Translations under genes and position numbers: made by a program
IMG/VR virus record: IMGVR_UViG_3300021599_002674
Span: 1 to 34,320 of that record
Direction: 5' to 3' (one strand)
Source: a virus
DNA length: 34,320 nucleotides
Shown here: in pieces, positions 6 through 29,885 of the stretch
How the letters are laid out: every line of letters begins with the position of its first letter
How positions within the stretch are numbered: position 1 is the first letter of the stretch
Notes under the pieces: generated by a model
Told to the model about the DNA's origin: nothing
What the model saw: only the letters and a program-made list of their open reading frames with translations
Databases searched by the model: none

Positions 6-812
6 ATGTCAGATAAATTAAACGTTTCAATTGTATTACCAATTAAATCTTCAAGAGCTAGAGACTTTGCTGAATACTTCGGTAAAGCAATCCAATCAAT
101 AAAGAATCAAATTGTAGGTGTAGATGAATTAGTTATTGTACACACACAAGAAGAAAGTTTAGTTACTTTTTTAAATTCATTTGATTTTGGTGATTTAAAC
201 GTAAGTAAATATGTTTTTGAAGGAGACCCAACGTATTCAGGACAAATGAATTTTGGTATTGAGAAAGCCAAAAACCCGTGGGTGTCTTTTTTCGAATTTG
301 ATGATGAATATTCATCAATTTGGTTTAAAAACGTACAAAAGTATATGGAATCATATCCTGAAGTACAAGCTTTTTTACCTATAGTTGTTGATACAGATGA
401 GAAAGGAGTATTTAAAGGATTCACTAATGAGGCAACTTTTGCGGCTAACTTTAGTCAAGAAATGGGAGTCTTAACAAATGAAACTTTAAACGATTATTCA
501 AATTTCCAAACCGCTGGTATGGTTATCAAAAAAGAAGCGATAACTGATTTCGGTGGATTCAAACCTTCTATTAAGTTAACATTCGTGTATGAGTTTTTAC
601 TTAGAATGACTTATAACTCAATTAATATTATGTCTATTCCTCGTCTAGGATACAAACATACAAATATGAGAGAAGGATCAATATTTTGGAATTATAAGAA
701 CGGAGAATCAGTTCTTACAGATGACGAAGTTAAATTTTGGTTACAGACAGCCAAAAAAGAATATTTCTTCGTTGACGATAGGTCAATAAAATACGAAACA
801 ACGAAAGACTAA
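6..812 (+). CDS. GT-A type glycosyltransferase-like protein
   Basis: 268 aa. The N-terminus (NVSIVLPIKSS, then a DELVIVHT strand) has the beta-strand pattern of family 2 GT-A glycosyltransferases. An acidic EFDDEYS segment near residue 100 sits where the metal-binding DxD motif is expected, after a YSGQMNFGIEKAKNPWVSF stretch typical of the donor-sugar pocket. The likely role is sugar transfer to a phage structure or nucleic acid; the acceptor cannot be read. The stop overlaps the next start by one base (TAATG), so it is translationally linked to the late sigma factor gene. The start codon lies at the window edge, so its promoter is not visible. The fold assignment is fairly safe, the substrate unknown. 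Confidence 0.72.
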   Translation: MSDKLNVSIVLPIKSSRARDFAEYFGKAIQSIKNQIVGVDELVIVHTQEESLVTFLNSFDFGDLNVSKYVFEGDPTYSGQMNFGIEKAKNPWVSFFEFDDEYSSIWFKNVQKYMESYPEVQAFLPIVVDTDEKGVFKGFTNEATFAANFSQEMGVLTNETLNDYSNFQTAGMVIKKEAITDFGGFKPSIKLTFVYEFLLRMTYNSINIMSIPRLGYKHTNMREGSIFWNYKNGESVLTDDEVKFWLQTAKKEYFFVDDRSIKYETTKD

Positions 813-1594
813 TGATTGAAATCATTTCTGGACAAACAGAGGTTTCTGAAGTAATCGAGGTCTCTGATCAAACAGAAGATGCGTCATCGAAAAAAAGAGG
901 TAGAAAAGCAGTTAATTTAAATTATTTTGATGTAAGAGAAGAAACCGCAGTTAGAAATTTTCTAATAGCAGAAACATCTGAGGAAAAAAATAAAATTTAC
1001 AATGAGTTCTTACGAGGACCTCTTGATAAAATGATATCATCAATTATCAGACGATATAAATTATATCGTAAGGATATGGATTTTATTGAAATTCATGGAG
1101 ATACTCATTCCTTTTTGATGACGAAAGTCGATAAGTTTAAACCCGCAAAAAATAAGAAAGCGTATTCGTATTTTGGTACGATATGTAAGAATTATTTAAT
1201 GGGTCAAATAATTAAAGACCAAAAAGAAACAAATAGAAAAGTATCTTACGAAGACATATCTCAAAGTCTAGAGGAAAGACCTGACATGAGTTATAGGATA
1301 GATGAAGATGTTATGGATGTTGAAGGTCTGATTAGGAAGTACCTTATAGATTTAACAAAATTTATTGATGAAGAAAATCTTAATGATAATGAAAAAAAAT
1401 TAGGATATGCCCTAATTGATTTATTTGAAAATTACGAATTAATATTTTCAGGAGCTGACAATAACAAATTTAATAAGAATGTTATACTCTTATCATTAAG
1501 AGAAATGACAAACTTAAGTACAAAAGAAATACGAAGTGCGATGAAAAGGTTTAAAAAACTTTATATTTTCACTCAATCAAAGATGAAAATTTAA
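812..1594 (+). CDS. 55: Late-transcription sigma factor, T4 gp55-like
   Basis: 260 aa, longer than T4 gp55 (185 aa) because of a charged N-terminal extension of about 60 residues containing a KKRGRK patch. Residues about 70-165 resemble sigma region 2: a helix with IIRRYKLYRKDMDF, then KFKPAKNKKAYSYFGTICKN and LMGQIIKDQKETNRK, the arrangement seen in phage late sigma factors (…AYF..I..N…I…K). The C-terminal half (DLTKFIDEENLNDNEKKLG…LSLREMTNLSTKEIRSAMKRFKKL) looks like a small helix-turn-helix. It would direct host RNA polymerase to phage late promoters; the TATTTAT boxes in this window are the candidate targets. Identification is by motif and context only. Confidence 0.75.
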   Translation: MIEIISGQTEVSEVIEVSDQTEDASSKKRGRKAVNLNYFDVREETAVRNFLIAETSEEKNKIYNEFLRGPLDKMISSIIRRYKLYRKDMDFIEIHGDTHSFLMTKVDKFKPAKNKKAYSYFGTICKNYLMGQIIKDQKETNRKVSYEDISQSLEERPDMSYRIDEDVMDVEGLIRKYLIDLTKFIDEENLNDNEKKLGYALIDLFENYELIFSGADNNKFNKNVILLSLREMTNLSTKEIRSAMKRFKKLYIFTQSKMKI

Positions 1595-11041: not shown

Positions 11042-11128
11042 TTATCTCAATTCTCTTAAGTCGAAAGTTCTAACTCCATCAACTGTAATTCTACCGTAGA
11101 ATCTGTTGTTCACCATCTTCTTAGCGTA
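11042..11128 (-). pseudogene. 23: Displaced C-terminus of the major capsid protein
   Basis: Reading on past the capsid stop in the +1 frame gives YAKKMVNNRFYGRITVDG, then VRTFDLRELR and a stop at 11042-11044. This looks like the natural C-terminus of a gp23-type capsid protein, and no other gene occupies these 87 nt. Between the in-frame end (…YFPANQVLLR) and this tail, the usual gp23 segment containing GYKG and YAPY-type motifs is missing, by my estimate about 40-45 residues. This looks like a deletion that also shifts the frame. Confidence 0.7.
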
Positions 11129-12719
11129 ATAACACTTGGTTAGCAGGGAAGTAAGGATCTCTATACACTTGGTAACGTCCAGCTAAAGTACCAACTCTTT
11201 CAATACCCATGTTGTATTGATCTTGCTCAGGAGCTGCGTTTGAAACGTGGAAATACTCCAAGTCATCAAAAATAGCACTGATTTCAGAAGATACAACGAT
11301 CCAGTTTGCTCCACCTCTTAAAGTAGATTTGTGGATTTGAGCTGAAATTTGGTTGATTGCTGTAATCAACGTTTGGTTCCAATCTTTTTGAGTGTAAGGA
11401 ACTGCGTTGTTACCTAATTGCTTCCATCCGTTGTAGTTCCATCTTAAGTTCCAAGATGCACCTTTTCTAAGATCTCTCAAGATTTCTCTGTCGATTTCTG
11501 CTGCAACTTGCTCAGATAATAAAGCTGTTAATTCAGCTTCAGCATCGATGTTGTGGAATGCCGCAACGTCTTGAGCCAATTCAGGTGACCATTGTGCTCT
11601 TAACTTTCTTTCTGTAACAGAAACTGTTACTGCTTGAAGGTCAAAAGAAACCTCACCTAATCTGTCTTCAAATTCCATTTCTTTGTACACTCTGTACTTA
11701 CACTTAAACGCTTGGTTGTAAGCTGTAGCAACAGTTGTTGTGTAACCTGAGTAACCATCTAATGATGTTGAAGTAACTTCACAAGGAACTTGTAAGTCAG
11801 CCTCTAAGTAGATAACACCGTTAGCGTCACAAACGTTATTGTAAGAACCACCATTTCCTGTTGAAGGGAATGTAGTTGTTGATTGACCACCGTATTGAAC
11901 GATACCCTTACCATAAACTTGAGTTACAACTCTGAATAATACTGGTGAAGATACACCAGAGAATCCGTTTGCTGTAGCGTTAGTGATTGGTAATACTTGT
12001 AATGAAGCTAAGAAAGCTTCTGTATCTTGTTCGTTACCATCTGGTCCGATTAATTGACCTTGACCTGCTGATTGGAAACCAGATAAAGCCATGATAACTT
12101 TTCTGTAAGTACCCGCTGCGTATCCTGATTGGATTAATGCGTTACCAGCTGAATCCCAAACTTGAGTTGACGCTGTGTAAGTCATTGCAGAGAAAGTACC
12201 TTTAGAGTAATCGAAAAGACCTGGAGGATCCAAATCTGGTTCGTTACCTTCATAGAAAAGATCGTATAAATCTTTATCGTTTTGGTTATATCCAGCTTGT
12301 TGAGATGCAGGACCATTTGGTGAACCATACGGTGCGTAGTGATCTCCACCATCTTGAGGTAATAACTCGTCAGGTGATTGATATCTTTGGATATGAGGTA
12401 CAAAGTAGAATAATTTACCGATTGGTAAGTTCATTGCTTGTACTGATACGATATCGTTAGCTAATAATTTAGAGAAAACTCTTCTAACGATTGGGAAAAC
12501 TACAGTTTCGAAAGAACCTGATGAGTCTGTTGTTGCAGCTTCATTGATCAAATATGATGCTTGGTTCTCAAATAACTGAGCTACGTTTTCCTTTTGGTGA
12601 CCTTTAAGACCTTCTAAAAAGCCTAATTTGTCCCATTTGTTGATTGTGTCTTCTTTGATAACTTTAAGGTGCTTAAGACCGATGTTACCAACAAGACCTG
12701 ATTCTAATAATGGTTTCAT
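11121..12719 (-). CDS. 23: Major capsid protein, T4 gp23-like (C-terminus disrupted)
   Basis: 532 aa as read. The N-terminal 60 residues are a removable propiece ending in ASYLINE, after which AATTDSSGSFETVVFPIVRR matches the mature start of gp23 proteins; cleavage after Glu60 by the gp21 protease is expected. The core contains VSVTERKLRAQWSPELAQDV, HNIDAEAELTALLSEQ and EIDREILRDLRKGA, all typical of gp23. The end (GTLAGRYQVYRDPYFPANQVLLR) stops where the family normally continues, and the true tail is found out of frame at 11042-11128. The start overlaps the end of gp22 and has no late box of its own within view, odd for the most abundant late protein. Confidence 0.93.
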   Translation of the reverse strand: MKPLLESGLVGNIGLKHLKVIKEDTINKWDKLGFLEGLKGHQKENVAQLFENQASYLINEAATTDSSGSFETVVFPIVRRVFSKLLANDIVSVQAMNLPIGKLFYFVPHIQRYQSPDELLPQDGGDHYAPYGSPNGPASQQAGYNQNDKDLYDLFYEGNEPDLDPPGLFDYSKGTFSAMTYTASTQVWDSAGNALIQSGYAAGTYRKVIMALSGFQSAGQGQLIGPDGNEQDTEAFLASLQVLPITNATANGFSGVSSPVLFRVVTQVYGKGIVQYGGQSTTTFPSTGNGGSYNNVCDANGVIYLEADLQVPCEVTSTSLDGYSGYTTTVATAYNQAFKCKYRVYKEMEFEDRLGEVSFDLQAVTVSVTERKLRAQWSPELAQDVAAFHNIDAEAELTALLSEQVAAEIDREILRDLRKGASWNLRWNYNGWKQLGNNAVPYTQKDWNQTLITAINQISAQIHKSTLRGGANWIVVSSEISAIFDDLEYFHVSNAAPEQDQYNMGIERVGTLAGRYQVYRDPYFPANQVLLR

Positions 12720-14887: not shown

Positions 14888-15607
14888 TTATTTATCCAAA
14901 TAATCGGATAATTTTTTCATTAAATCAATAGACTTACCCGCATCTCCTTGAATAGAACCTGACATTATTTTTTCTTCATCTAAATTCTCTTCATATTTTA
15001 ATCTATCTTCAGGGTTAGCAAATAAATACGCTCCTGGCGTTGATGGAGATGATACTAAATCGAAACAAATCAATTCGAAGTCATCTTGTACTTCATTTCT
15101 TTCTCCCACCTTTTTTAAGGACCCTACACCTCTTGATGATACTCCCATAGTAACTCCTTGTCTCATTAAGTTAGCAGCAATATCTCCTTTAGTTGATACG
15201 ATACCGCTCTCATGAAATCCTGGTGATGTTAATAATTTTAACTTACCCATTAAAATGTTTCCTTCCCACCAAATATCGGTGATAATATGGGCAACTCTAT
15301 CAAGGTCAATTAGTGAAGATTCTGGGTGGTTTAATTCTGATGTTGATAAACCTTTAGATATAGTTTTTTTATATCTATCAGCTTCTCTCTTTAATATTCT
15401 TTCAGGGTAAAATCTTCCGTTTCTGTTAGGCGTGTTGTATTTCTGTAAAACCGCATAGAATTCAAACGGTTTTTTATAGTCCAACATGTTACTCTCTTTA
15501 AACACAGACTCATTAAGTATGTCCGTAGGAGAAACATATCCCGCGTCCATTTCAATCAAAATTCCTTTTCCTGATTCATTAGGACCAAGTATACGTAATT
15601 CTTTCAT
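14888..15607 (-). CDS. 21: Prohead core protease, T4 gp21-like
   Basis: 239 aa, close to T4 gp21 (212 aa). It has the serine-protease hallmarks of the family: NRNGRFYPERIL near residue 62, STSELNHPE with catalytic His94, and TMGVSSRGVGS with the nucleophile Ser157 or Ser158, then a C-terminal LVSSPSTPGAYL segment typical of the fold. It would cut prohead proteins after hydrophobic-x-Glu, including gp23 after Glu60 and the gp22 scaffold. ILNE and FKE near residues 33-38 are possible self-cleavage sites. A late box lies 13 nt upstream, overlapping the stop of the preceding gene. Confidence 0.93.
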   Translation of the reverse strand: MKELRILGPNESGKGILIEMDAGYVSPTDILNESVFKESNMLDYKKPFEFYAVLQKYNTPNRNGRFYPERILKREADRYKKTISKGLSTSELNHPESSLIDLDRVAHIITDIWWEGNILMGKLKLLTSPGFHESGIVSTKGDIAANLMRQGVTMGVSSRGVGSLKKVGERNEVQDDFELICFDLVSSPSTPGAYLFANPEDRLKYEENLDEEKIMSGSIQGDAGKSIDLMKKLSDYLDK

Positions 15608-15618
15608 TTAAACTTTTT

Positions 15619-16083
15619 CTATAAATATACTTGCGGCTCTGATTTGTTAATATTTCCGTTTTTTGTTAATGTAAAATCAAAATAAGAATTATTATTAAAA
15701 TTTTCATTATTGATTTTTTGTACGATTTTTTTGATGGAGTCTTTAACTTGTGTAGACTTGAAATCCAACTCTAATAATGTAAAAAGATTAATTTCTAAAT
15801 TAAGAAATGATTTTTTACCGTAAACAATTCCGCTAGTTCTAAGATCAAGATCTACGATTGTTTTTTCTTCATATAAGTTTCTATCAAGATTATTGTATAC
15901 TGAATGTTTTATTTCTCTACTAAGGTTACAGACAACTCTATTCCAATTGTCTGATGATATTTTGGGATTAACCCATGATTGTATGTTTATGTATATTGAT
16001 TTTAGATTCTTGGAATCGACTGTTCCAAAATTAACTTTTAAGGATTCGAAATTATTTATTCTCGACGTTTTTCCTTTCTTCAT
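15619..16083 (-). CDS. Hypothetical protein between portal and prohead protease
   Basis: 154 aa. The pattern RINNFESLKVNFGTVDSKNL, then IYINIQSWVNPKISSDNW and NLSREIKHSVYNNLD, VDLDLRTSGIVYGKKSFLNL recalls a conserved hypothetical protein I associate with T4-like phages of this type; function unknown. It lies where T4 has small prohead core genes (67/68), but no similarity to them can be seen. Unlike its late neighbours it has a host-type promoter (16118-16149), which argues for early expression and against a simple structural role. Confidence 0.58.
   Translation of the reverse strand: MKKGKTSRINNFESLKVNFGTVDSKNLKSIYINIQSWVNPKISSDNWNRVVCNLSREIKHSVYNNLDRNLYEEKTIVDLDLRTSGIVYGKKSFLNLEINLFTLLELDFKSTQVKDSIKKIVQKINNENFNNNSYFDFTLTKNGNINKSEPQVYL
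15621..15627 (-). promoter_or_regulatory. Candidate late promoter box of gp21 (sense TATTTAT), 13 nt before ATG
   Basis: The sense strand reads TATTTAT, AGAAAAAGTTTAA, ATG (15607). A-rich long-spacer class. It overlaps the stop codon of the upstream gene. Confidence 0.55.
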
Positions 16084-16117: not shown

Positions 16118-16149
16118 TAAACATAGAAAATTTTACACCATTAGTCAAA
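16118..16149 (-). promoter_or_regulatory. Host-type (Bacteroidota) promoter
   Basis: On the minus strand TTTG (16149-16146), 20 nt, TATGTTTA (16125-16118). One mismatch to TAnnTTTG. Drives the 15619-16083 gene. Confidence 0.6.
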
Positions 16150-16168
16150 AAATGACGAATCTAAAATA

Positions 16169-16175
16169 TATTTAA
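16169..16175 (+). promoter_or_regulatory. Possible variant late box TATTTAA before bS21
   Basis: TATTTAA, TATT, ATG (16180). It differs from TATTTAT by one base and has the 4-nt spacing of the short-spacer class. The overlapping TATATTTA (16167-16174) also resembles a host -7 box, but no TTTG is found 19-21 nt upstream. Confidence 0.35.
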
Positions 16176-16179
16176 TATT

Positions 16180-16365
16180 ATGATAATTGTAGAAATTGGA
16201 AAAAATGAAAATTTAGAAAGAGCATTAAAAACTCTTAAGTCTAAAGTTATTAAAACAAAACAACAAAAAATACTTTTTGAAAAAAAGGAATTTGTGAAAC
16301 CTTCTGTTAGAAAAAGAACACAGAAATTAAAGGCTATCTACTCTGAAAAAATGAGACGAGGTTAG
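16180..16365 (+). CDS. rpsU: Phage-encoded small-subunit ribosomal protein bS21
   Basis: 61 aa, the usual bS21 length. The match to bS21 runs the whole length: MIIVEIGKNENLERALKTLK (bS21: V..GE…RALK..K), the basic central helix, KKEFVKPSVRKRTQKLKAIY (bS21: …F.KPSV.RR..KL.A.Y) and a basic tail. Tyr54 is present. In Bacteroidota ribosomes bS21, with bS18 and bS6, covers the anti-Shine-Dalgarno end of 16S rRNA, and Tyr54 has been implicated there. The phage copy could therefore replace the host protein and alter which mRNAs are initiated. The gene is alone on the plus strand within the minus-strand head module, and its stop overlaps the convergent gene's stop. Confidence 0.9.
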   Translation: MIIVEIGKNENLERALKTLKSKVIKTKQQKILFEKKEFVKPSVRKRTQKLKAIYSEKMRRG

Positions 16366-17060
16366 ATTGATTTTTCTAACGAACTAATTCTAACATAGTT
16401 CATTTGATTAAATTCCTCCCCTCTGATTTTATCAATAGTTTCTGAAATTTTAGTCTTTAACTCAACTTCACTTTCACCTTCTAAGATAGTTTGTAACTTT
16501 GTTATTGCACTTTCTTTTATAGTTGTGAATTCTGTTTCTAACTCTTTTGGATTACCAGTAACCACCTTTAAAAAATCTTTTTTAGTATTCTCATCCATTG
16601 TATCAACATAACTTTTTAAAGTTTGATTGGCAACGCTAACCATAGATTTTAAAGGAATGTTAATAGACTCGTTAACTTTATTGGGTGATTTTTTTAATGT
16701 ATCTACAAGATTTTTCTTAGCTTGAATTCTTTCAGAAATATTCAATGACTTAACATAAACAATTGTATCTAGATCAGAATATTTGTTATTAATACTCTTA
16801 GAACTAAATTTAGGTAATTTTGAAGAACCTAAAATTGTTTGAATTAATTTAATCCCTTCTTCCAAATATTCTTTGGCGTCAGATTCGGACATACCTTTCT
16901 CTGATGTTAAATCATCATATAAAGAATATAGTTTTGAGATTGATTTATTGGTCAGCACGTTTTGATGAAACTCGTTCATCACTTTCTTGAAATTTTTTTG
17001 GTCTTTGTACGACTCAATCAAACTCTCTTCTATTATGGATTTTACTTCTCCGAATGTCAT
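16362..17060 (-). CDS. Hypothetical helical protein downstream of portal
   Basis: 232 aa, not recognised. It is almost entirely helical and charged (KDQKNFKKVMNEFHQNVL; MSESDAKEYLEEGIKLIQTI; ETIDKIRGEEFNQMN). The N-terminus SIIEESLIESYKD contains a hydrophobic-x-Glu site (LIE). It lies between portal and gp21 where T4 encodes small prohead core proteins, so a prohead core role is possible by synteny only. A TATTTAT box lies 17 nt upstream. Confidence 0.55.
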   Translation of the reverse strand: MTFGEVKSIIEESLIESYKDQKNFKKVMNEFHQNVLTNKSISKLYSLYDDLTSEKGMSESDAKEYLEEGIKLIQTILGSSKLPKFSSKSINNKYSDLDTIVYVKSLNISERIQAKKNLVDTLKKSPNKVNESINIPLKSMVSVANQTLKSYVDTMDENTKKDFLKVVTGNPKELETEFTTIKESAITKLQTILEGESEVELKTKISETIDKIRGEEFNQMNYVRISSLEKSI

Positions 17061-17084: not shown

Positions 17085-17447
17085 TTAGGAATTTAATAAG
17101 TTATCCAATTCTTTTTCCATTTCTCCTAAAAATTGTTGACCTTGACTCAAATCCAAAATATCTCGACCTTTAATCATATCATTTTCTAACAAAATATTCA
17201 TGTTAGCGAAACGAGATTCCGGTACTGTTTCTGGTGGTGTTTCTCCCGCAGGTGCCTCTTCAGGACTAGGAGGTAATTCTTCACCTCCTGCTGGTGTCGG
17301 GAATCCTCCACCTAATGGTTCTGTTACTTCACCTTCAGGAGTTGCTCCTGATGCTGTTGAACCTGAAACAGTTCCATATAATTTATCTATATTATCAAAG
17401 ATTCCTGTTTTTTGAATAACAGCTGGAGTATTCTTAAGTTCTTCTCT
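17085..17447 (-). pseudogene. 20: Displaced C-terminal region of the portal protein
   Basis: An open frame without its own start, in a different frame from the portal ORF, runs from 17447 to a stop at 17085. It reads REELKNTPAVIQKTGIFDNI, DKLYGTVSGSTASGATPEGE, a Pro/Gly/Glu-rich linker, then RFANMNILLENDMIKGRDIL and LSQGQQFLGEMEKELDNLLN. Continuous coding character with no competing gene, and its position right after the portal frame, mark it as the portal C-terminus. A stretch that links the portal core to this tail in the family (perhaps about 80 residues) seems to be missing. Confidence 0.68.
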
Positions 17448-18685
17448 TCAAAACCCAATAAGAATAAGTGAATGATGGCAACTTTATTAAGTTCCGCTAA
17501 CATACTCTTTTGAATTCTATTAATAGTTCTGGCGAATCGAATATCTTGTAAAGCCAAATTTTTTCCATCACCAACAACATCTTCAAAACCTAAGAAAGCC
17601 TTAGGTACACGAAGTGCGGTTAAAAGTTTCTTTTGGATATATTCAATATCCGCAATTTCGGCTAAGTTCTGAGCTCCCGGTAATGTATCAATTGGACTTG
17701 GAGCTGCCGGATCTCTAACAGGTACGAAATAATCTTGGTCAACGGCCATCTGATTAAATCTCATATCAACATTACCTGTTTTTTGATCAACAACCTGATC
17801 TCTTTTGAATTTGTTTGCAACACGTTGTACATATGCTTCAACATCCGCATCTTCCATATTACCAACAAACACTTTGAAAATTCTTCTTTCAGGTGCTCTT
17901 GATGTTCTATAGATTAACATTGCATCTTCAGATAACAATAATTGTTTCCATATTCTTCTTGCTTTTTCCAACATAGATGTTCCGTATGGAAGTTTTCTAT
18001 CGTCACCTAATAATCTAAAGTGAGCAATTTCCCATGATTGAAATTCCATGTTTTTATTCTTCCAAGTGAAATGAAGTGCCTTATGTTCTGTTGGATTTTC
18101 AATAGATTGAGCTCTTCTTTCGTGCATACCTGCCTCAACCCTTTCAATTTCAATATTCGGTAATTGTTGTACACCAACAACACCTTTTTCAGGATCTAAT
18201 TTAAGATATACAAAATTATCACCATACTTACATGTGTTTCTTGTCCACATTGCTAAGTTAGTGTTAACATCCATCGTATTGTTAAATAAATCGGCTAATA
18301 CACCTTTGATTCTTTTTGACTCAGAATAAATTTGTAATATAAAACCATCTTCGTTTGTTGTTGTAGATTCTTCAGCGTAGATATCTAACGCGGCAGAAAT
18401 TTCAGGAGTATACTCCATTGACTCATAATCATAAACTGATGCAAGTCTTGTTGGTTCATAGTAAACCGCTTGAGAATACATATTATTCTCAACTTTCGCC
18501 CATTGGTTGGACAGATAAAAGGTTTGCTGTGCCTGAAGTTTTTCACGCTCATATTGCTCCTTATCTTGGGTTCTTAATAACTCTTTTTTATCAAATTTAA
18601 GTGTAGGATAATCTTGATTCAAAAGAGAATTAGGACCAAAAGCTTGGGATAATCTTTGCCAGACCGTTAGGTTCTTTTCACTCAT
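17387..18685 (-). CDS. 20: Portal protein, T4 gp20-like (C-terminus disrupted)
   Basis: 432 aa as read; T4 gp20 is 524 aa. Gp20 signatures include VYDYESMEYTPEISAALDIY, AEESTTTNEDGFILQIYSES, NMEFQSWEIAHFRLLGDDRK, YGTSMLEKARRIWKQLLLSE, AMLIYRTSRAPERRIFKVFV, and PAAPSPIDTLPGAQNLAEIA with DIEYIQKKLLTALRVPKAFL. The dodecameric portal anchors head, packaging motor and neck. The last residues (LLGFEEKNLRILQLLFKKQE) leave the expected path near 17445, where the real tail appears in another frame. The gene follows gp17 directly, without the gp18/gp19 genes that lie between them in T4. Confidence 0.92.
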   Translation of the reverse strand: MSEKNLTVWQRLSQAFGPNSLLNQDYPTLKFDKKELLRTQDKEQYEREKLQAQQTFYLSNQWAKVENNMYSQAVYYEPTRLASVYDYESMEYTPEISAALDIYAEESTTTNEDGFILQIYSESKRIKGVLADLFNNTMDVNTNLAMWTRNTCKYGDNFVYLKLDPEKGVVGVQQLPNIEIERVEAGMHERRAQSIENPTEHKALHFTWKNKNMEFQSWEIAHFRLLGDDRKLPYGTSMLEKARRIWKQLLLSEDAMLIYRTSRAPERRIFKVFVGNMEDADVEAYVQRVANKFKRDQVVDQKTGNVDMRFNQMAVDQDYFVPVRDPAAPSPIDTLPGAQNLAEIADIEYIQKKLLTALRVPKAFLGFEDVVGDGKNLALQDIRFARTINRIQKSMLAELNKVAIIHLFLLGFEEKNLRILQLLFKKQESLII

Positions 18686-18723: not shown

Positions 18724-20478
18724 TTACTTCCCGAATAACCATAAATACTTTTGATAATCGCTTTTTGTTGCTTCTGATGGATACCTTCCACTATTTGTTC
18801 CACCTGCAGGTATCATGGGATTAAAAAAGTCGGCCCTATTTTTATTTTCACTAACACTTGTATGCCACGCATCAATCATAACCTTTGTTTGACTTACAAC
18901 TTTAGATAAACTTTGGAATGAAGTATCTCCGACATAAATTGCCATAGATATCGCCATAATCAAATCGTCATGATGTCCTTTTTGATGATCAGGTCTCCCA
19001 TGAACATATATGAATTTACCCATTTCATTCAATAACCTTGATGATCTAATTTTAAAATCATGTCTTAGCGCTTCTTCAAACGCTGCAATAATTTGAACAC
19101 GTTTGTTATTAAAATTAATTCCAGGTATTTTTTCATCTCTTTTGGGATCCCACTTATATTTGTTTTTCTCGGTAACCCCCTCAACGTATAAATTCTTATA
19201 TCCTAACTCTTGTAGTTTTCTTGCTGTTGCAACACCCATACCTCCTGTTAAATCCGTAACGGCAAATGCGTTATACATGTTACCCCACTTGAAGGCAATT
19301 TCCGCCAATGTATCTGGTGGTAGTTTTCCGACGTATTCAAACACTTGTTCTCTATCATCAAAGTCTATTATCACAATACATGAGAAGTCCTCTGAATCAC
19401 CTCTGGATACGTCAATACCCATAATATACTTGTGTGTTAATACAGGTTCTTTCCAAATCCACAAATTACCGGCCATCATCTTTCCATCTGGTTCTTTGAT
19501 GTCGTTTTCTTTAATTCTCATCAATTGGTTGGCATCGAACACATTATCACCCGATCCCAAGAAGTTACACTCTAATTCCTGTGCAACTTTTCTCTTGTCA
19601 TACTTAAGTTTTTTAACCATCCCCTCAAACCACGTTGAGTAAGGTTTAAATCCTTTATCCAAATATTCACTTACAATCGTGTAATCTCTTTCATATGAAT
19701 TTTCAACTGTAAGATCAACTATCTCTGTGTTAGGATAATTTTCTCGATTCAAAAGATATTCGACAAGATCTTCAGTTTTAATCATCTGTAAATCTTTGTT
19801 GTATCTTGGATCTTTAAACCAAAACATCTCAGTGATGTTAAAAGTATTCATCTTTCTGAGTGCTTGATCGTAGATTTCATAATAAATCGGATCGTATCCA
19901 TTTGGAGTAGAAATTACAATAACCTTACCACCCGTAGATAGTGAGGCCATACAAGCTGCCCAAAAGTCATCATCAGCTTCAATGTAGGCGGCTTCATCAA
20001 AAATTAATATTGTTGGAGTATATCCACGTAAGGCATCCTTTGAAGTTGCAACAGCTTTAACTTCACATCCATTTATAAGTTTAAAATGTCGAGCGGCGTT
20101 TTTGTCAGGGGAGAATCCTGCTCCAACCCATTGAGGCCATTGTTCAGTGAATGATCTAACTTTATTGGCAAACTCAACTGCGGTGTCAAGTTTGTTGGCA
20201 ATGATAAGAACCTTTTCGGGGTTATTCTTTTTGGCAAATACAAGTCTTTTTGAAGCCCAAGCAGCAGTTACCGTTGACACCCCTGCTTGTCTATATTTTA
20301 GGGCAATATTTTCGTTATAGTTGTCGTAATCTTCAACCAATGTAACTTGGTCGGGAAATAAATCCAAAGGAACATACTTCTTCACCGTATTGTCAAACGT
20401 TTGAAGGTATGTTCTCATGGCGTACGGAGTGTTTTTCATACACTTCGTAGCTTCAATAATTAATTGTTCTTTTGTCAC
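18724..20478 (-). CDS. 17: Terminase large subunit, T4 gp17-like
   Basis: 584 aa, near T4 gp17 (610 aa). The start is GTG, 6 nt after the upstream stop. ATPase domain: Walker A variant RQAGVST at residues 63-69, Walker B LIFDEAA with Asp161-Glu162, coupling motif STPNG at 190-194. Nuclease domain (RNase H fold): first acid in YIMGIDVSRGDSEDFS, second in AVTDLTGGMG, third in HHDDLIMA. It pumps DNA into proheads through the gp20 portal and cuts concatemers. The frame is intact and complete. The upstream acidic 391-aa gene occupies the position of the small terminase gp16. Confidence 0.95.
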   Translation of the reverse strand: MTKEQLIIEATKCMKNTPYAMRTYLQTFDNTVKKYVPLDLFPDQVTLVEDYDNYNENIALKYRQAGVSTVTAAWASKRLVFAKKNNPEKVLIIANKLDTAVEFANKVRSFTEQWPQWVGAGFSPDKNAARHFKLINGCEVKAVATSKDALRGYTPTILIFDEAAYIEADDDFWAACMASLSTGGKVIVISTPNGYDPIYYEIYDQALRKMNTFNITEMFWFKDPRYNKDLQMIKTEDLVEYLLNRENYPNTEIVDLTVENSYERDYTIVSEYLDKGFKPYSTWFEGMVKKLKYDKRKVAQELECNFLGSGDNVFDANQLMRIKENDIKEPDGKMMAGNLWIWKEPVLTHKYIMGIDVSRGDSEDFSCIVIIDFDDREQVFEYVGKLPPDTLAEIAFKWGNMYNAFAVTDLTGGMGVATARKLQELGYKNLYVEGVTEKNKYKWDPKRDEKIPGINFNNKRVQIIAAFEEALRHDFKIRSSRLLNEMGKFIYVHGRPDHQKGHHDDLIMAISMAIYVGDTSFQSLSKVVSQTKVMIDAWHTSVSENKNRADFFNPMIPAGGTNSGRYPSEATKSDYQKYLWLFGK

Positions 20479-24852: not shown

Positions 24853-26856
24853 TTATGCAAGGTTCTTTATGTTAGGAGATGATCCTGACTCGTAACTTCT
24901 TACAACTTTTGCCACAAGATCACCTGTTCCCCACGTTTTAAGTGAAGGACATTTTGCAATTTGAGCAGCTCCTATGTCGTTTTTTAATCCATTAACAATA
25001 CAATCATAAAACCCATTTCTTAAGGTTTTTAATGTTGCAACCATACCGTCTTCTAACGACACGTAGTTCTGCACACCCGCAGAATTCATCTTAGTTGATC
25101 CTGGTCTTTTCCATGTAGTATTGAATGGGTTGTATTTTCCACCTTTTCCTTCGGCTTGTCTCCAAGCGTATAGGTATTTTAAATTTTCAGAAGTTACAGG
25201 TGCGCCTAATTCAGTTAATAATCTTTCATAAAAATTTTTATCTGTAATATTTCCTGTATCAATTTCTTTGTTCTTTTGGATTTTTGATAAATCATCGTCA
25301 GAAAATTTTCTAATCACTAACATAGCTGTCAAATACCTCAAATCAAATCCATCTATTTTTCCATCAGCTGTTAATCCAACAGACTTTTGAAATTCTTTTG
25401 TTGCGTTTTCAGTTTCAGGACCAAATTTTCCGTCTATCCCCCATTTTGGTAATGAAAGTCCTAAAAATTGTAAAGCAGTTTGTATCACCTCAACATCTTT
25501 ATCGTATGTAATTTTACCTGGCGAGTATGTAACACTTTTATTAGATTCTGCCATTCTCATTAATTCTTGGATGAACTTTGAGTCTCCAACTAAATCTGAA
25601 ATTTCACCGTCTTCACTGAACTTCTTACCGTACTTTCCTAATTTTTGACCTTTAGCACATTTTAATGAACCATCATCATTTAAGAACTCACGAATATTAT
25701 GTCCTGTCTCAACGCCTATGTGTACGTGGTCATAAGAACTTCCTGGAAAATCCATAACATATCCAATTAATTGACCACATTCGATCTTATCTCCTTTACC
25801 AACAGTAACTCCTTTCAAGTGAGTATAATAAATGTCAGGTAAACCACCGTCACTATCTACTGTAAAACTTTGTCCGTATAATTTTTTTCCTCCTCTTTTA
25901 ATCACATCTGCTCCGTAATCTGAAAAAGTTTGAACAGTACCACCGGCTAATGCAAAAACAGGATCTCCAATTGATGCTTTGATGTCCCATGCATTACTTG
26001 AATGCCAGCCACTTTGTCCCGCATGAGCTCCGTCTTTTGGAATTGTCATATTACTACCACCTAATAAGTAATTGCTTTCAACTTCATTCAAATATTTTGC
26101 AATAGATTCAGATAGAGATTGTTCTATCGATAATTCTTTGTCCATGTAGTTGTCATATGTATTGAATAATTTTTCAATCATCCCATTTCTTCTTAAGAAT
26201 TTGAATGTCAAATTTTCATATGATAATTCTCCATCTTTATCTAAACCAGATTTTCTATAATCTTTCAACTTAGCTTTCAAATCCTCAATTTTCTTTTTCC
26301 CTTTTTCTAAATCTTCACCTTTTAATTCTTGTAAAGCATTCTCAATTTTTTCGTTCCAATTTTTTACCTTATCTTCTATTACCGACTTATCAATACTAAC
26401 CTTTAATTTTTCAGGTTGATTTATCCATTTGTCTTCCATTACTGAATAGACACCTGAACTTTCATGTTTTTCTTCTGATCCTTGAGCATACAATTCAACA
26501 TCATATCCGAAGATTTTGATGTCATGTTTGTCATTAAAAACTTGTTTCTTTAAATTGAAAAGTTCTTTGTAAGTTTCTTCTTCTTTTCCAAATCTTTCGA
26601 GGTCGACAATAATGTGTAAATCGAAATCAGAATATTCGGACCAATTAAAGTTGGCTAGTGACCCTGTTAGGGTAATATCTTCCACAAAAGCGTCATCGCC
26701 AAGATAGTCAATAAATTCTTCAGCAATCCTCATCAACGCCTTTTTGACGTTAGATTTCATTTTTGCATCTTTAGGATCTTCAGGATTGTCCCAAATTTTT
26801 GGATTCAAAGTATCTCTAAGACTGAAGCTATCTAATATTTTTTGGAAATTGCTCAT
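24853..26856 (-). CDS. Nucleotidyltransferase - M23 peptidase - PG-binding - lysozyme-like fusion
   Basis: 667 aa in one intact frame. Residues 1-235: nucleotidyltransferase-fold domain with LTGSLANFNWSEYSDFDLHI (Gly65-Ser66, Asp77, Asp79). Residues 246-258: QSLSESIAKYLNE, an LSES...LNE module like the gp23 cleavage region. Residues about 270-395: M23-type zinc endopeptidase with GWHSSNAWDI (His285, Asp291), YYTHLKG (His346) and YDHVHIG (His377, His379). Residues about 435-510: PG_binding_1-like domain (VIQTALQFLGLSLPKWGIDG; GPETENATKEFQKSVGLTAD). Residues about 545-667: lysozyme/transglycosylase-like domain (YAWRQAEGKGGKYNPFNTTW; MNSAGVQNYVSLEDGMVATL). The C-terminal half would open the cell wall at entry or exit. 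Late box 5 nt upstream. Confidence 0.82.
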   Translation of the reverse strand: MSNFQKILDSFSLRDTLNPKIWDNPEDPKDAKMKSNVKKALMRIAEEFIDYLGDDAFVEDITLTGSLANFNWSEYSDFDLHIIVDLERFGKEEETYKELFNLKKQVFNDKHDIKIFGYDVELYAQGSEEKHESSGVYSVMEDKWINQPEKLKVSIDKSVIEDKVKNWNEKIENALQELKGEDLEKGKKKIEDLKAKLKDYRKSGLDKDGELSYENLTFKFLRRNGMIEKLFNTYDNYMDKELSIEQSLSESIAKYLNEVESNYLLGGSNMTIPKDGAHAGQSGWHSSNAWDIKASIGDPVFALAGGTVQTFSDYGADVIKRGGKKLYGQSFTVDSDGGLPDIYYTHLKGVTVGKGDKIECGQLIGYVMDFPGSSYDHVHIGVETGHNIREFLNDDGSLKCAKGQKLGKYGKKFSEDGEISDLVGDSKFIQELMRMAESNKSVTYSPGKITYDKDVEVIQTALQFLGLSLPKWGIDGKFGPETENATKEFQKSVGLTADGKIDGFDLRYLTAMLVIRKFSDDDLSKIQKNKEIDTGNITDKNFYERLLTELGAPVTSENLKYLYAWRQAEGKGGKYNPFNTTWKRPGSTKMNSAGVQNYVSLEDGMVATLKTLRNGFYDCIVNGLKNDIGAAQIAKCPSLKTWGTGDLVAKVVRSYESGSSPNIKNLA

Positions 26857-26877: not shown

Positions 26878-27006
26878 TTAGAGTTTTTTATACTGATATT
26901 TTTTCGAGATGTCTGTTGTAAAAAATTTACCTTGTGATTCAGACATTCTGAATTTGGTATAGACTGCGTGAGGTACGTCTTTGTATTCTGTATGTAGATA
27001 ACTCAC
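26878..27006 (-). CDS. Possible small ORF or displaced C-terminus
   Basis: 42 codons from a GTG at 27006, overlapping the end of the 26939-27232 gene in another frame: VSYLHTEYKDVPHAVYTKFR, then MSESQGKFFTTDISKKYQYK. It has better protein-like character than the overlapping tail of the neighbour (YRIQRRTSRSLYQIQNV), so either it is a real small gene or a frameshift near 27005 has displaced the neighbour's C-terminus. The two possibilities cannot be separated from this sequence. Confidence 0.4.
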   Translation of the reverse strand: MSYLHTEYKDVPHAVYTKFRMSESQGKFFTTDISKKYQYKKL

Positions 27007-27232
27007 CCTGATTTATTTCAAAACCATAATCCTTAATTTGTTTAAATAAAGAATTTTTCTTACTTACAAACCTTTCACGTAATTCAATCATCTTATTTGT
27101 AGGACGCACAACCCTTTCCAATGCTTCTTGACTGTATCCCTCCTCTTGTAAATGCAATCTCAATTCAAGGTATGTATCTAACATACCCCTCAGGGTTACA
27201 TTGTTTTCCAAAAATTTATCAATCATATTCAT
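26939..27232 (-). CDS. Small helical hypothetical protein
   Basis: 97 aa as read, not recognised. It is helical and charged (IDKFLENNVTLRGMLDTYLE; RVVRPTNKMIELRERFVSKK) with a central Gly-Tyr turn. The last 20 residues look less natural than the alternative frame (26878-27006), so the C-terminus may be frameshifted. A late box lies 5 nt before the ATG. Confidence 0.52.
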   Translation of the reverse strand: MNMIDKFLENNVTLRGMLDTYLELRLHLQEEGYSQEALERVVRPTNKMIELRERFVSKKNSLFKQIKDYGFEINQGELSTYRIQRRTSRSLYQIQNV

Positions 27233-27293: not shown

Positions 27294-27677
27294 CTATAAA
27301 AGACTAACTCTTTTCTTTTCTTTTTTCTTGAAGTTTGGAACAAATACGGTTAAAAGACCGTCTTCTATTGTTGCCTCTACTGAGTTAGGGTCATAACCTT
27401 CACCAATATTAAATTTCTTAGATATTGATTTAGTTCTTGATTCTCCCTCCATTTTATATGTTCTTTCTCCTTCAATGTGTAAAGTACCATTTTCCATTTC
27501 TACTTTTAAGTTTGATTTGTTAAATCCTGGTGCTTCAAAGAAAAGGTAAGCTCCGTCTTTGGTGTAGTCTATTTCATAATTCTCGTCAGCATCTTTTACT
27601 GTTTTTTTATAATACTGATAAGTTGGTGTTTCCCCAAAGAACTTTTCAAATAATTCATTTGCGTTTCTGTAAACCAT
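27294..27677 (-). CDS. Small heat shock protein, Hsp20/alpha-crystallin
   Basis: 127 aa. The alpha-crystallin domain spans residues about 32-120: NYEIDYTKDGAYLFFEAPGF, NKSNLKVEMENGTLHIEGER, KFNIGEGYDPNSVEATIEDG and LLTVFVPNF, with the typical A.ieDGlL.v.vP ending. The short N-terminus (ELFEKFFGETPTYQYYKK) is phage-like, and there is a basic KKKEKKRVSLL tail. It is an ATP-independent holdase that keeps unfolding proteins soluble. Hsp20 genes are known in marine T4-like phages. Here it is divergent from a ClpC-like unfoldase across a repeat-containing 198-bp region, suggesting joint regulation and a shared role in host proteostasis or capsid assembly. Confidence 0.9.
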   Translation of the reverse strand: MVYRNANELFEKFFGETPTYQYYKKTVKDADENYEIDYTKDGAYLFFEAPGFNKSNLKVEMENGTLHIEGERTYKMEGESRTKSISKKFNIGEGYDPNSVEATIEDGLLTVFVPNFKKKEKKRVSLL

Positions 27678-27875: not shown

Positions 27876-29885
27876 ATGAACGATTTAATGGACGACGACG
27901 ACAAAATGATGAGTAAAAAGAAATCTCAGTCTGATAGTTCAACACCTGTGTTGGATAACTTCAGTAGAGATTTGATTAAATTGGCAGAACAAGGTAAATT
28001 AGACCCTGTTATCGGACGTGAAAAAGAAATAATCCGTATTGCACAAATCCTTTCTCGTAGAAAGAAGAATAACCCAATTATCATCGGAGAACCTGGTTGT
28101 GGTAAAACTGCTATCGTTGAAGGTTTGGCTATGAAAATCTTTAGTGGTGATTGTCCCAAAAATTTAATGGATAAAAGAATTGTAAATCTTGATATCAATT
28201 CAGTTGTCGCTGGTACAAAATATCGTGGTCAGTTTGAGGAAAGATTGAAAGTGATTATCGAAGAACTTGGTGCTAACCCAAACATCATTGTATTCATCGA
28301 TGAGATCCACACCATTGTAGGTGCGGGTAATGCTTCAGGTTCATTAGACGCATCCAATATATTCAAACCAGCACTTGCTCGTGGTGAAATACAATGTATC
28401 GGTGCAACCACTCTTGACGAGTATCGTACAAATTTTGAGAAAGACGGAGCATTAGAAAGACGATTCCAAAAAGTTACTGTCGACGGTGCAAGTATGGAAG
28501 AAACTTTCCAAATCCTTTTAAATTCTAAAGACAGATATGAGTCTTTCCACAAAGTATCGTATAGTGATGAGGTATTAAAAGCTTGTGTCAAACTTGCTGA
28601 TCGATACATCACCGATCGTGAATTCCCTGATAAAGCTTTCGACATCTTAGATGAGGTAGGTGCTCGTTGTCAACTGGACATGAAGATTCCTCAGGTTATT
28701 GAAGATCTAAAGACAAAGGCATCTGAAATCAAACAACTTAAGATTGATGTAGTTAAAAAACAAAACTACGAACAAGCTGCTGAGTTGAGAGATAAAGAAA
28801 GAAAGATTATCGCCAAGTTAGATTCTGAAAAGAAAAAGTTTGAAGAAGAGATGTCTCAATCTAAACGTGAAATCACTTTGGAACTAGTTTATGACGTTGT
28901 TTCAACTATGACCAAGATTCCTGTGAACAAAATGTCAATCGACGATACGAAGGCATTAGTTGATTTGGACAAAACTCTTCAACAAAAAGTTGTCGGTCAA
29001 GATGAAGCGGTTCTTAAGATTGTTAAATCCATTCGTAGAAACCGTCTTGGAATCAAGGATCCAAACAGACCTATTGGTTCATTCATTTTCTTAGGTTCAA
29101 CAGGTGTAGGTAAAACTCACTTAGCGAAACAATTGGCAAAAGAAATATTTGGAACTGAAGATTCATTGATCCGTGTTGACATGAGTGAATATCAAGAGAA
29201 ACACACAATATCTAAATTGGTGGGAGCTCCTCCAGGTTATGTTGGATACGATGAAGGTGGTCAATTAACTGAACAAGTTAAGAACAAACCATATTCTGTA
29301 ATTCTATTCGATGAGGTTGAGAAAGCGCACAAAGATATCTTCTCAGTTCTTCTTCAAATTATGGATGACGGTCACGTTACAGATAGTTTAGGTAGAAAGA
29401 TTAACTTCAGAAATACCATGATTATCATGACATCAAATCTTGGTGTGAAGAAACTTCAAGATTTTGGAACAGGTATCGGATTTGGATCTTCCAAATACAG
29501 TAATGATGAGAAAAAGAAGGAAGTTCTAATGAAAGAAATGAAAAATTTCTTCTCTCCTGAATTCTTGAACAGAATCGACGATATCATCACATTCAATAGT
29601 TTGAATAATGAGGACATCAAGAAGATCGCTGAAATCGAAGTCAAAAAGTTATTCTCTCGTCTTACTGATATGAACTATAAAATCAACTACGATCAAAGTG
29701 TGATTGATTTTATATCTAAAGTTGGATACGATGATACATACGGAGCAAGGCCACTGAAGAGAGCGATCCAAGATAAGATCGAAGATTTAATCTCTGAAGA
29801 AGTACTAAAAGGTAATATCAAAGAAAATACCAACTATAAGGTAATCGCTGACGGAGAAGAGGTTAAGGTTAAAAAAGGTAAATAA
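27876..29885 (+). CDS. clpC: ClpC/ClpA-type AAA+ unfoldase lacking the N domain
   Basis: 669 aa, against about 810-850 for cellular ClpC. Two AAA+ modules: D1 with GEPGCGKT (71-78) and IDEIHT (141-146), D2 with GSTGVGKT (407-414) and VILFDEVEKAH (about 474-484). A short middle domain has a UVR-like helix, VKKQNYEQAAELRDKERK (293-310), typical of ClpC. The Clp_N adaptor domain is missing: the protein begins just before STPVLDNFSRDLIKLAEQGK. TGIGFGSS (IGF at 533-535) sits where the ClpP-docking loop is found, so it may feed the host ClpP. Its loss of N domain would alter adaptor-dependent substrate choice. Confidence 0.9.
   Translation: MNDLMDDDDKMMSKKKSQSDSSTPVLDNFSRDLIKLAEQGKLDPVIGREKEIIRIAQILSRRKKNNPIIIGEPGCGKTAIVEGLAMKIFSGDCPKNLMDKRIVNLDINSVVAGTKYRGQFEERLKVIIEELGANPNIIVFIDEIHTIVGAGNASGSLDASNIFKPALARGEIQCIGATTLDEYRTNFEKDGALERRFQKVTVDGASMEETFQILLNSKDRYESFHKVSYSDEVLKACVKLADRYITDREFPDKAFDILDEVGARCQLDMKIPQVIEDLKTKASEIKQLKIDVVKKQNYEQAAELRDKERKIIAKLDSEKKKFEEEMSQSKREITLELVYDVVSTMTKIPVNKMSIDDTKALVDLDKTLQQKVVGQDEAVLKIVKSIRRNRLGIKDPNRPIGSFIFLGSTGVGKTHLAKQLAKEIFGTEDSLIRVDMSEYQEKHTISKLVGAPPGYVGYDEGGQLTEQVKNKPYSVILFDEVEKAHKDIFSVLLQIMDDGHVTDSLGRKINFRNTMIIMTSNLGVKKLQDFGTGIGFGSSKYSNDEKKKEVLMKEMKNFFSPEFLNRIDDIITFNSLNNEDIKKIAEIEVKKLFSRLTDMNYKINYDQSVIDFISKVGYDDTYGARPLKRAIQDKIEDLISEEVLKGNIKENTNYKVIADGEEVKVKKGK

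Follow-up and report, generated by a model that had tools for sequence, protein, structure and literature searches.

The presence of a ribosomal protein gene in a virus raises the question of what the virus gains from it and how the viral gene relates to rpsU, the host gene for the same protein. The open reading frame for bS21 (positions 16180–16365, plus strand) starts with ATG, encodes 61 aa and lies within a virus record of 34,320 bases, the whole of which was analyzed and is called the window here. The protein matches the Ribosomal_S21 profile (PF01165) over positions 2–52 of 55 with 39.7 bits (cut-off 27, E = 4e-10), and the PHROG library gave no match to it. The best PDB matches are the bS21 of 9i5v (E = 8e-8) and that of 7jil, the Flavobacterium johnsoniae ribosome (E = 2e-7). 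Both align without gaps over residues 1–58, which places Tyr at residue 54 in register with Tyr54 of F. johnsoniae. The C-terminal tail, KMRRG, is basic. The initial annotation had described a full-length bS21 of 61 aa with Tyr54 and a basic tail, and these analyses bear that description out. As 80 further loci encode a relative of conserved sequence, the open reading frame is not a chance one.

Stacking of the aromatic Tyr54 on A1534 is a mark of the Bacteroidia-type bS21, which masks the anti-Shine-Dalgarno (anti-SD) sequence. Judged by residue identity, the window protein belongs to the Bacteroidia type and has the Tyr54 typical of this stacking. The natural reading is therefore that it would replace the host copy and maintain the masking, as the initial annotation had proposed. 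This central point had already been published. Chen et al. (2022; PMC9723584) described bS21-encoding Bacteroidetes myophages in five clades, all with an aromatic residue at position 54 that was argued to keep the anti-SD masked. The protein family, the locus and the argument from Tyr54 to the anti-SD are all found in that study. The window bS21 is real and represents another member of the published family, carried by a phage of Bacteroidota, and the regulatory contrast with the host gene is the part added here.

In IMG/VR, 80 loci encode a bS21 that is 59–100% identical to that of the window. A search with the terminase identified 80 more loci of the same clade, 51 of them with bS21 and many of the rest too short to tell. 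No bS21 was detected anywhere in two clade records of 309 and 261 kb, which may be incomplete, or in any of 80 loci from phages resembling the Flavobacterium phage vB_FspM_immuto (immuto). A search for isolated phages with a close bS21 found none, only metagenomic records (46–50% identity). Residue 54 is aromatic in all 85 aligned phage bS21 (Y in 78, H in 4 and F in 3), even though the phage C-terminus is otherwise largely variable. The same position holds Y in 54/54 Flavobacteriaceae-type bS21 and K in E. coli. The window bS21 is about as close to Flavobacteriaceae (median identity 41%) as to other Bacteroidia (43%, best 50%).

The bS21 gene, on the plus strand, interrupts a run of minus-strand genes for capsid, protease, portal and terminase, with one hypothetical gene on each side. 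The divergent neighbor (15619–16083, minus strand, 154 aa) has no Pfam or PHROG match, and the convergent neighbor (16362–17060, minus strand, 232 aa) has no PHROG match; both come from the ORF list. The block contains the T4-type major capsid protein (11121–12719; phrog_138, E = 6.6e-52), the head maturation protease (14888–15607; phrog_207, E = 1.4e-43), the portal protein (17387–18685; phrog_213, E = 1.3e-62) and the terminase large subunit (18724–20478; phrog_2, E = 3.5e-38), all on the minus strand. A candidate late sigma factor resembling T4 gp55 (812–1594, plus strand) was recognized only through phrog_234 (E = 0.0013), has no Pfam match and is 76–81% identical in three other phages of the clade. 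Elsewhere in the window, an Hsp20 (27294–27677, minus strand) and a ClpB/ClpC-type AAA+ ATPase (27876–29885, plus strand; phrog_4871, E = 5e-241) form a phage proteostasis pair near a phage tmRNA (32583–32979, plus strand; Rfam 90.7 bits, ARAGORN tag GKTFAKLSAIGLIREESVVAA). A tmRNA above the cut-off was also seen in 8 of 14 related phage records.

In F. johnsoniae, bS21 regulates its own gene via an extended SD in rpsU that is read by ribosomes lacking bS21, and the Y54A or deltaC change was found experimentally to raise rpsU translation (McNutt et al., 2023; PMC9976891). We computed the pairing energy of leaders against the F. johnsoniae 16S tail and defined an extended SD as one below -13 kcal/mol. 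All 80 Flavobacteriaceae-type rpsU loci, taken from genome contigs and mostly from Flavobacterium, have an extended SD (-17.5 to -23.3 kcal/mol). None was found in a first set of 30 distinct phage bS21 upstream regions (-5.0 to +2.6 kcal/mol), where the window bS21 has a value of +1.8 kcal/mol. In another 44 distinct upstream regions, which form a second set, the median is 0.6 kcal/mol, one region falls below -7 and none passes -13; the two sets partly overlap, so their total of ~74 distinct regions is an upper count. The strongest leader in the second set belongs to the bS21 gene of locus L363, with the near-SD AAAAGGAGGAA at -12.2 kcal/mol, and could be a relic or a natural contrast case. 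The phage bS21 gene is without the strong SD of Flavobacteriaceae-type rpsU, and this is the new observation. The bS21 genes of host and phage differ sharply in the one regulatory signal that ribosomes without bS21 are known to read, and through this contrast the role of the phage bS21 becomes testable with the existing F. johnsoniae reporter strains.

The extended SD is not universal among Bacteroidia, since it was seen in 6 of 30 rpsU leaders from a class-wide sample of other Bacteroidia genomes. A model based on feedback through rpsU therefore requires a Flavobacteriaceae-like host. The two host bS21 in the class sample nearest to that of the window (L416 and L417) have strong SDs of -15.0 and -13.6 kcal/mol. 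Absence of an SD was rejected as a mark of the phage bS21, as both host and the bS21-less phage immuto are equally SD-poor. Counting genes below -7 kcal/mol, we found 23/516 in the bS21-encoding phage records against 51 in a mock window, 6 against 26 in immuto, and 3 against 13 in a Flavobacterium chromosome. Within the 34,320 bases studied here 2 of 38 genes pair better than this value, the corresponding counts being 2 for a mock window and 3 for sites within coding sequence, in agreement with the earlier remark that no gene of the window has a clear SD.

The phage bS21 gene also has a promoter-like box close to its start codon. The -7 element of F. johnsoniae, TAHHTTTG, precedes the start of the transcript by 4–5 nt, and leaders exceed 10 nt in 87% of the predicted transcripts (PMC6847099). 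Phage transcripts are often leaderless (PMC5312081). The -7-type box TATATTTA (16167–16174, plus strand) ends 5 nt ahead of the ATG of bS21, so the predicted leader measures 0–1 nt. On sequence evidence, this is the spacing of a leaderless transcript (-7 element 4–5 nt from the start codon). The box ends in A instead of the G of the host consensus. Across the 80 close relatives, TATTT(G/A) or TATATGT is kept about 5–8 nt before the bS21 ATG. In the nearest of these genes TATTT(G/A) ends 5–7 nt before the ATG, so that a leader of 0–2 nt is predicted. In more distantly related bS21 genes of this clade the box lies near -20, i.e., a short leader. For comparison, Flavobacterium rpsU has TTTG 29 nt before its ATG, and together with the published 25-nt leader this gives a gap of 4 nt between box and transcript start. 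A simple ORF caller supplied the gene starts, and the starts of transcripts were predicted from the DNA, so single cases of a box are uncertain.

A further conserved element, GTCAAA (16144–16149, no strand assigned), lies upstream of the phage bS21 genes. It was found in 48 of 55 non-redundant bS21 upstream regions, compared with 1.1 (max 4) in shuffles, at positions 17–64 nt upstream and mostly near -36. In nine regions AACATA occurs 18 nt farther out, which resembles a divergent -35/-10 pair (TTTGAC-N18-TATGTT). GTCAAA may be the -35-like side (TTTGAC) of a promoter that reads divergently into the minus-strand neighbor. A role as general -33 promoter element was rejected, as GTCAAA is rare before other genes and largely confined to bS21 upstream regions.

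Our preferred reading, to which we give roughly even weight, is that the phage bS21 is a working protein that masks the anti-SD and represses host rpsU, with the phage gene escaping the loop. The phage bS21 would enter host 30S subunits in late infection, and its Tyr54 would keep the 16S anti-SD masked. A Flavobacteriaceae-like host would rely for rpsU on an extended SD best read by bS21-free ribosomes, and ribosomes filled with phage bS21 would keep the synthesis of host bS21 low. Being SD-less and having a promoter box near its ATG, the phage mRNA should be read by masked ribosomes and would stand outside the loop. Since the phage gene is without the host-type SD, the phage copy may escape host feedback control.

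The constant aromatic residue 54 (85/85) and the SD contrast (80/80 rpsU against 0 of ~74 phage leaders) are in favor of this reading. A phage bS21 of another type enters E. coli ribosomes (Mizuno et al., 2019; PMC6375957), and the bS21 of relatives is co-expressed late with structural genes (PMC9723584). Several points speak against it. The one phage bS21 assayed in ribosomes in the literature searched left E. coli ribosomes with about 5% activity in vitro, nearly none (PMC6375957), few rpsU genes class-wide have the extended SD (6/30) and the window bS21 is no closer to Flavobacteriaceae, and related phages manage without bS21. Moreover, these phages and their hosts avoid the SD in general, and its loss at bS21 could reflect drift toward what is normal for the phage and not a selected escape. 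McNutt et al. (2023; PMC9976891) suggested a counter-defense in which autoregulation by the host brings its own bS21 back. Our comparison suggests that the phage bS21 could instead satisfy and silence the host rpsU loop. The strong form, that the host feedback loop is turned on itself, with masked ribosomes shutting off SD-driven rpsU and the SD-less, near-leaderless phage mRNA immune, is a tentative proposal that we think more probably wrong than right. If it is true, replacement of host bS21 would be self-reinforcing without a protease. No paper proposing that a phage bS21 silences the host rpsU loop was found in the literature searched, which includes few of the subscription journals.

Two other explanations were weighed. 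Ribosomes might be re-targeted, with the phage bS21 replacing that of the host and its altered N-terminal helix selecting phage mRNAs (Chen et al., 2022). We regard this as unlikely, with perhaps one chance in a handful or slightly better. It would account for a nearly invariant phage block in residues 21–28, where S21 (62/85), V23 (79/85), I24 (68/85), K27 (78/85) and Q28 (82/85) take the place of the host residues R21, F23, D24, G27 and T28; the same divergent region was seen by Chen et al. (PMC9723584). However, no bS21-dependent mark separating phage from host mRNAs was found, as SD depletion and leaderless-type promoters are equal in phages without bS21. The phage gene might also be a plain extra copy that, with specificity unchanged, completes ribosomes at the late stage, as the host supply of bS21 is lost or diluted. 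The loose, exchangeable binding of bS21 and the purifying selection on viral ribosomal proteins (PMC6375957) would fit such a supply role, as would the general rRNA-binding residues K17, K20, K22, K40 and R46, invariant in all 85 aligned phage bS21. Yet the conserved block at residues 21–28 is left unexplained, and we consider this explanation improbable.

The initial annotation had gone further and suggested that the phage bS21 changes the masking in favor of leaderless phage mRNAs. The promoter boxes are real: 6 of the 38 window genes have one 5–8 nt before the ATG, compared with 0.2 in shuffles. Phage-wide, TATTT(A/G)T or TAHHTTTG shows a sharp peak at this distance with almost none nearer and a hard edge at 4 nt, and the bS21 gene itself has the near-ATG box in its own subclade. 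Orthologous genes in different phages keep the box, and in five phages a similar one stands before the non-coding tmRNA, which argues for a promoter signal. A translation signal is disfavored, as the box is found at many distances, stops at a hard edge near the ATG and precedes the tmRNA. The share of genes with the box is nevertheless the same in bS21-encoding records (70/516) and in the two bS21-less records of the clade (87/737; Fisher p = 0.39), so it is a feature of clade promoters and not of bS21. The position near -20 in the more distant bS21 genes, giving a short leader, also speaks against this explanation. The simple link between leaderless mRNAs and the reason for a phage bS21 was rejected on the promoter pattern shared with bS21-less relatives, and we regard this version as very improbable. 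The predicted leaderless promoters of the clade are a separate observation, and the bS21-less records provide the control that such promoters do not require a phage bS21. Both parts of the clade differ from immuto in box share (p < 1e-5 each), with 4/202 genes in immuto, 0/477 in its relatives and 4/312 in the Flavobacterium host chromosome.

The candidate gp55-like sigma factor may read the TATTTAT box. A T4-type late promoter TATAAATA was rejected because no comparable peak was seen in that orientation. Other window gene starts with a box 5–8 nt before the ATG, for which leaderless transcripts are predicted, are at 1614, 7619, 24853–26856, 26939–27232, 29928 and 33511, and for the genes starting at 1614 and 26856 the box is kept in the G001 and G005 orthologs. 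In the immuto-like loci (L227–L305) the box peaks about 20 nt before the ATG (50/477 genes), with none at 5–8 nt, and predicted leader length thus differs between two T4-type phage groups linked to Bacteroidota.

The phages of Chen et al. (2022) are the closest known system. They have the same TerL-portal-protease-MCP neighborhood, in which bS21 runs against the strand of the block and is flanked by two hypothetical genes, and likewise Tyr54 or another aromatic residue, a divergent N-terminal region, and chaperone and Clp genes. Comparison of the window with their published description established no difference, and in their text (PMC9723584) no mention was found of the phage bS21 upstream region or an SD. 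The phage immuto (Immutovirus) is also T4-type and SD-depleted (terminase 27% and portal 37% identical), but it is without bS21 and has hardly any leaderless-type promoters. The bS21 of pelagiphage HTVC008M (Mizuno et al., 2019) is also phage-borne, proposed to replace the host protein and shown to enter E. coli ribosomes, but it is of the Alphaproteobacterial type, a separate acquisition, and masking of the anti-SD is not known from the ribosomes of its host. Flavobacteriaceae rpsU (McNutt et al., 2023) shares protein family, length and Tyr54 with the phage gene, with about 41–45% identity and different residues at 21–28. The host gene has a 25-nt leader with an extended SD, whereas the SD is missing from the phage gene and its promoter box lies right against the ATG.
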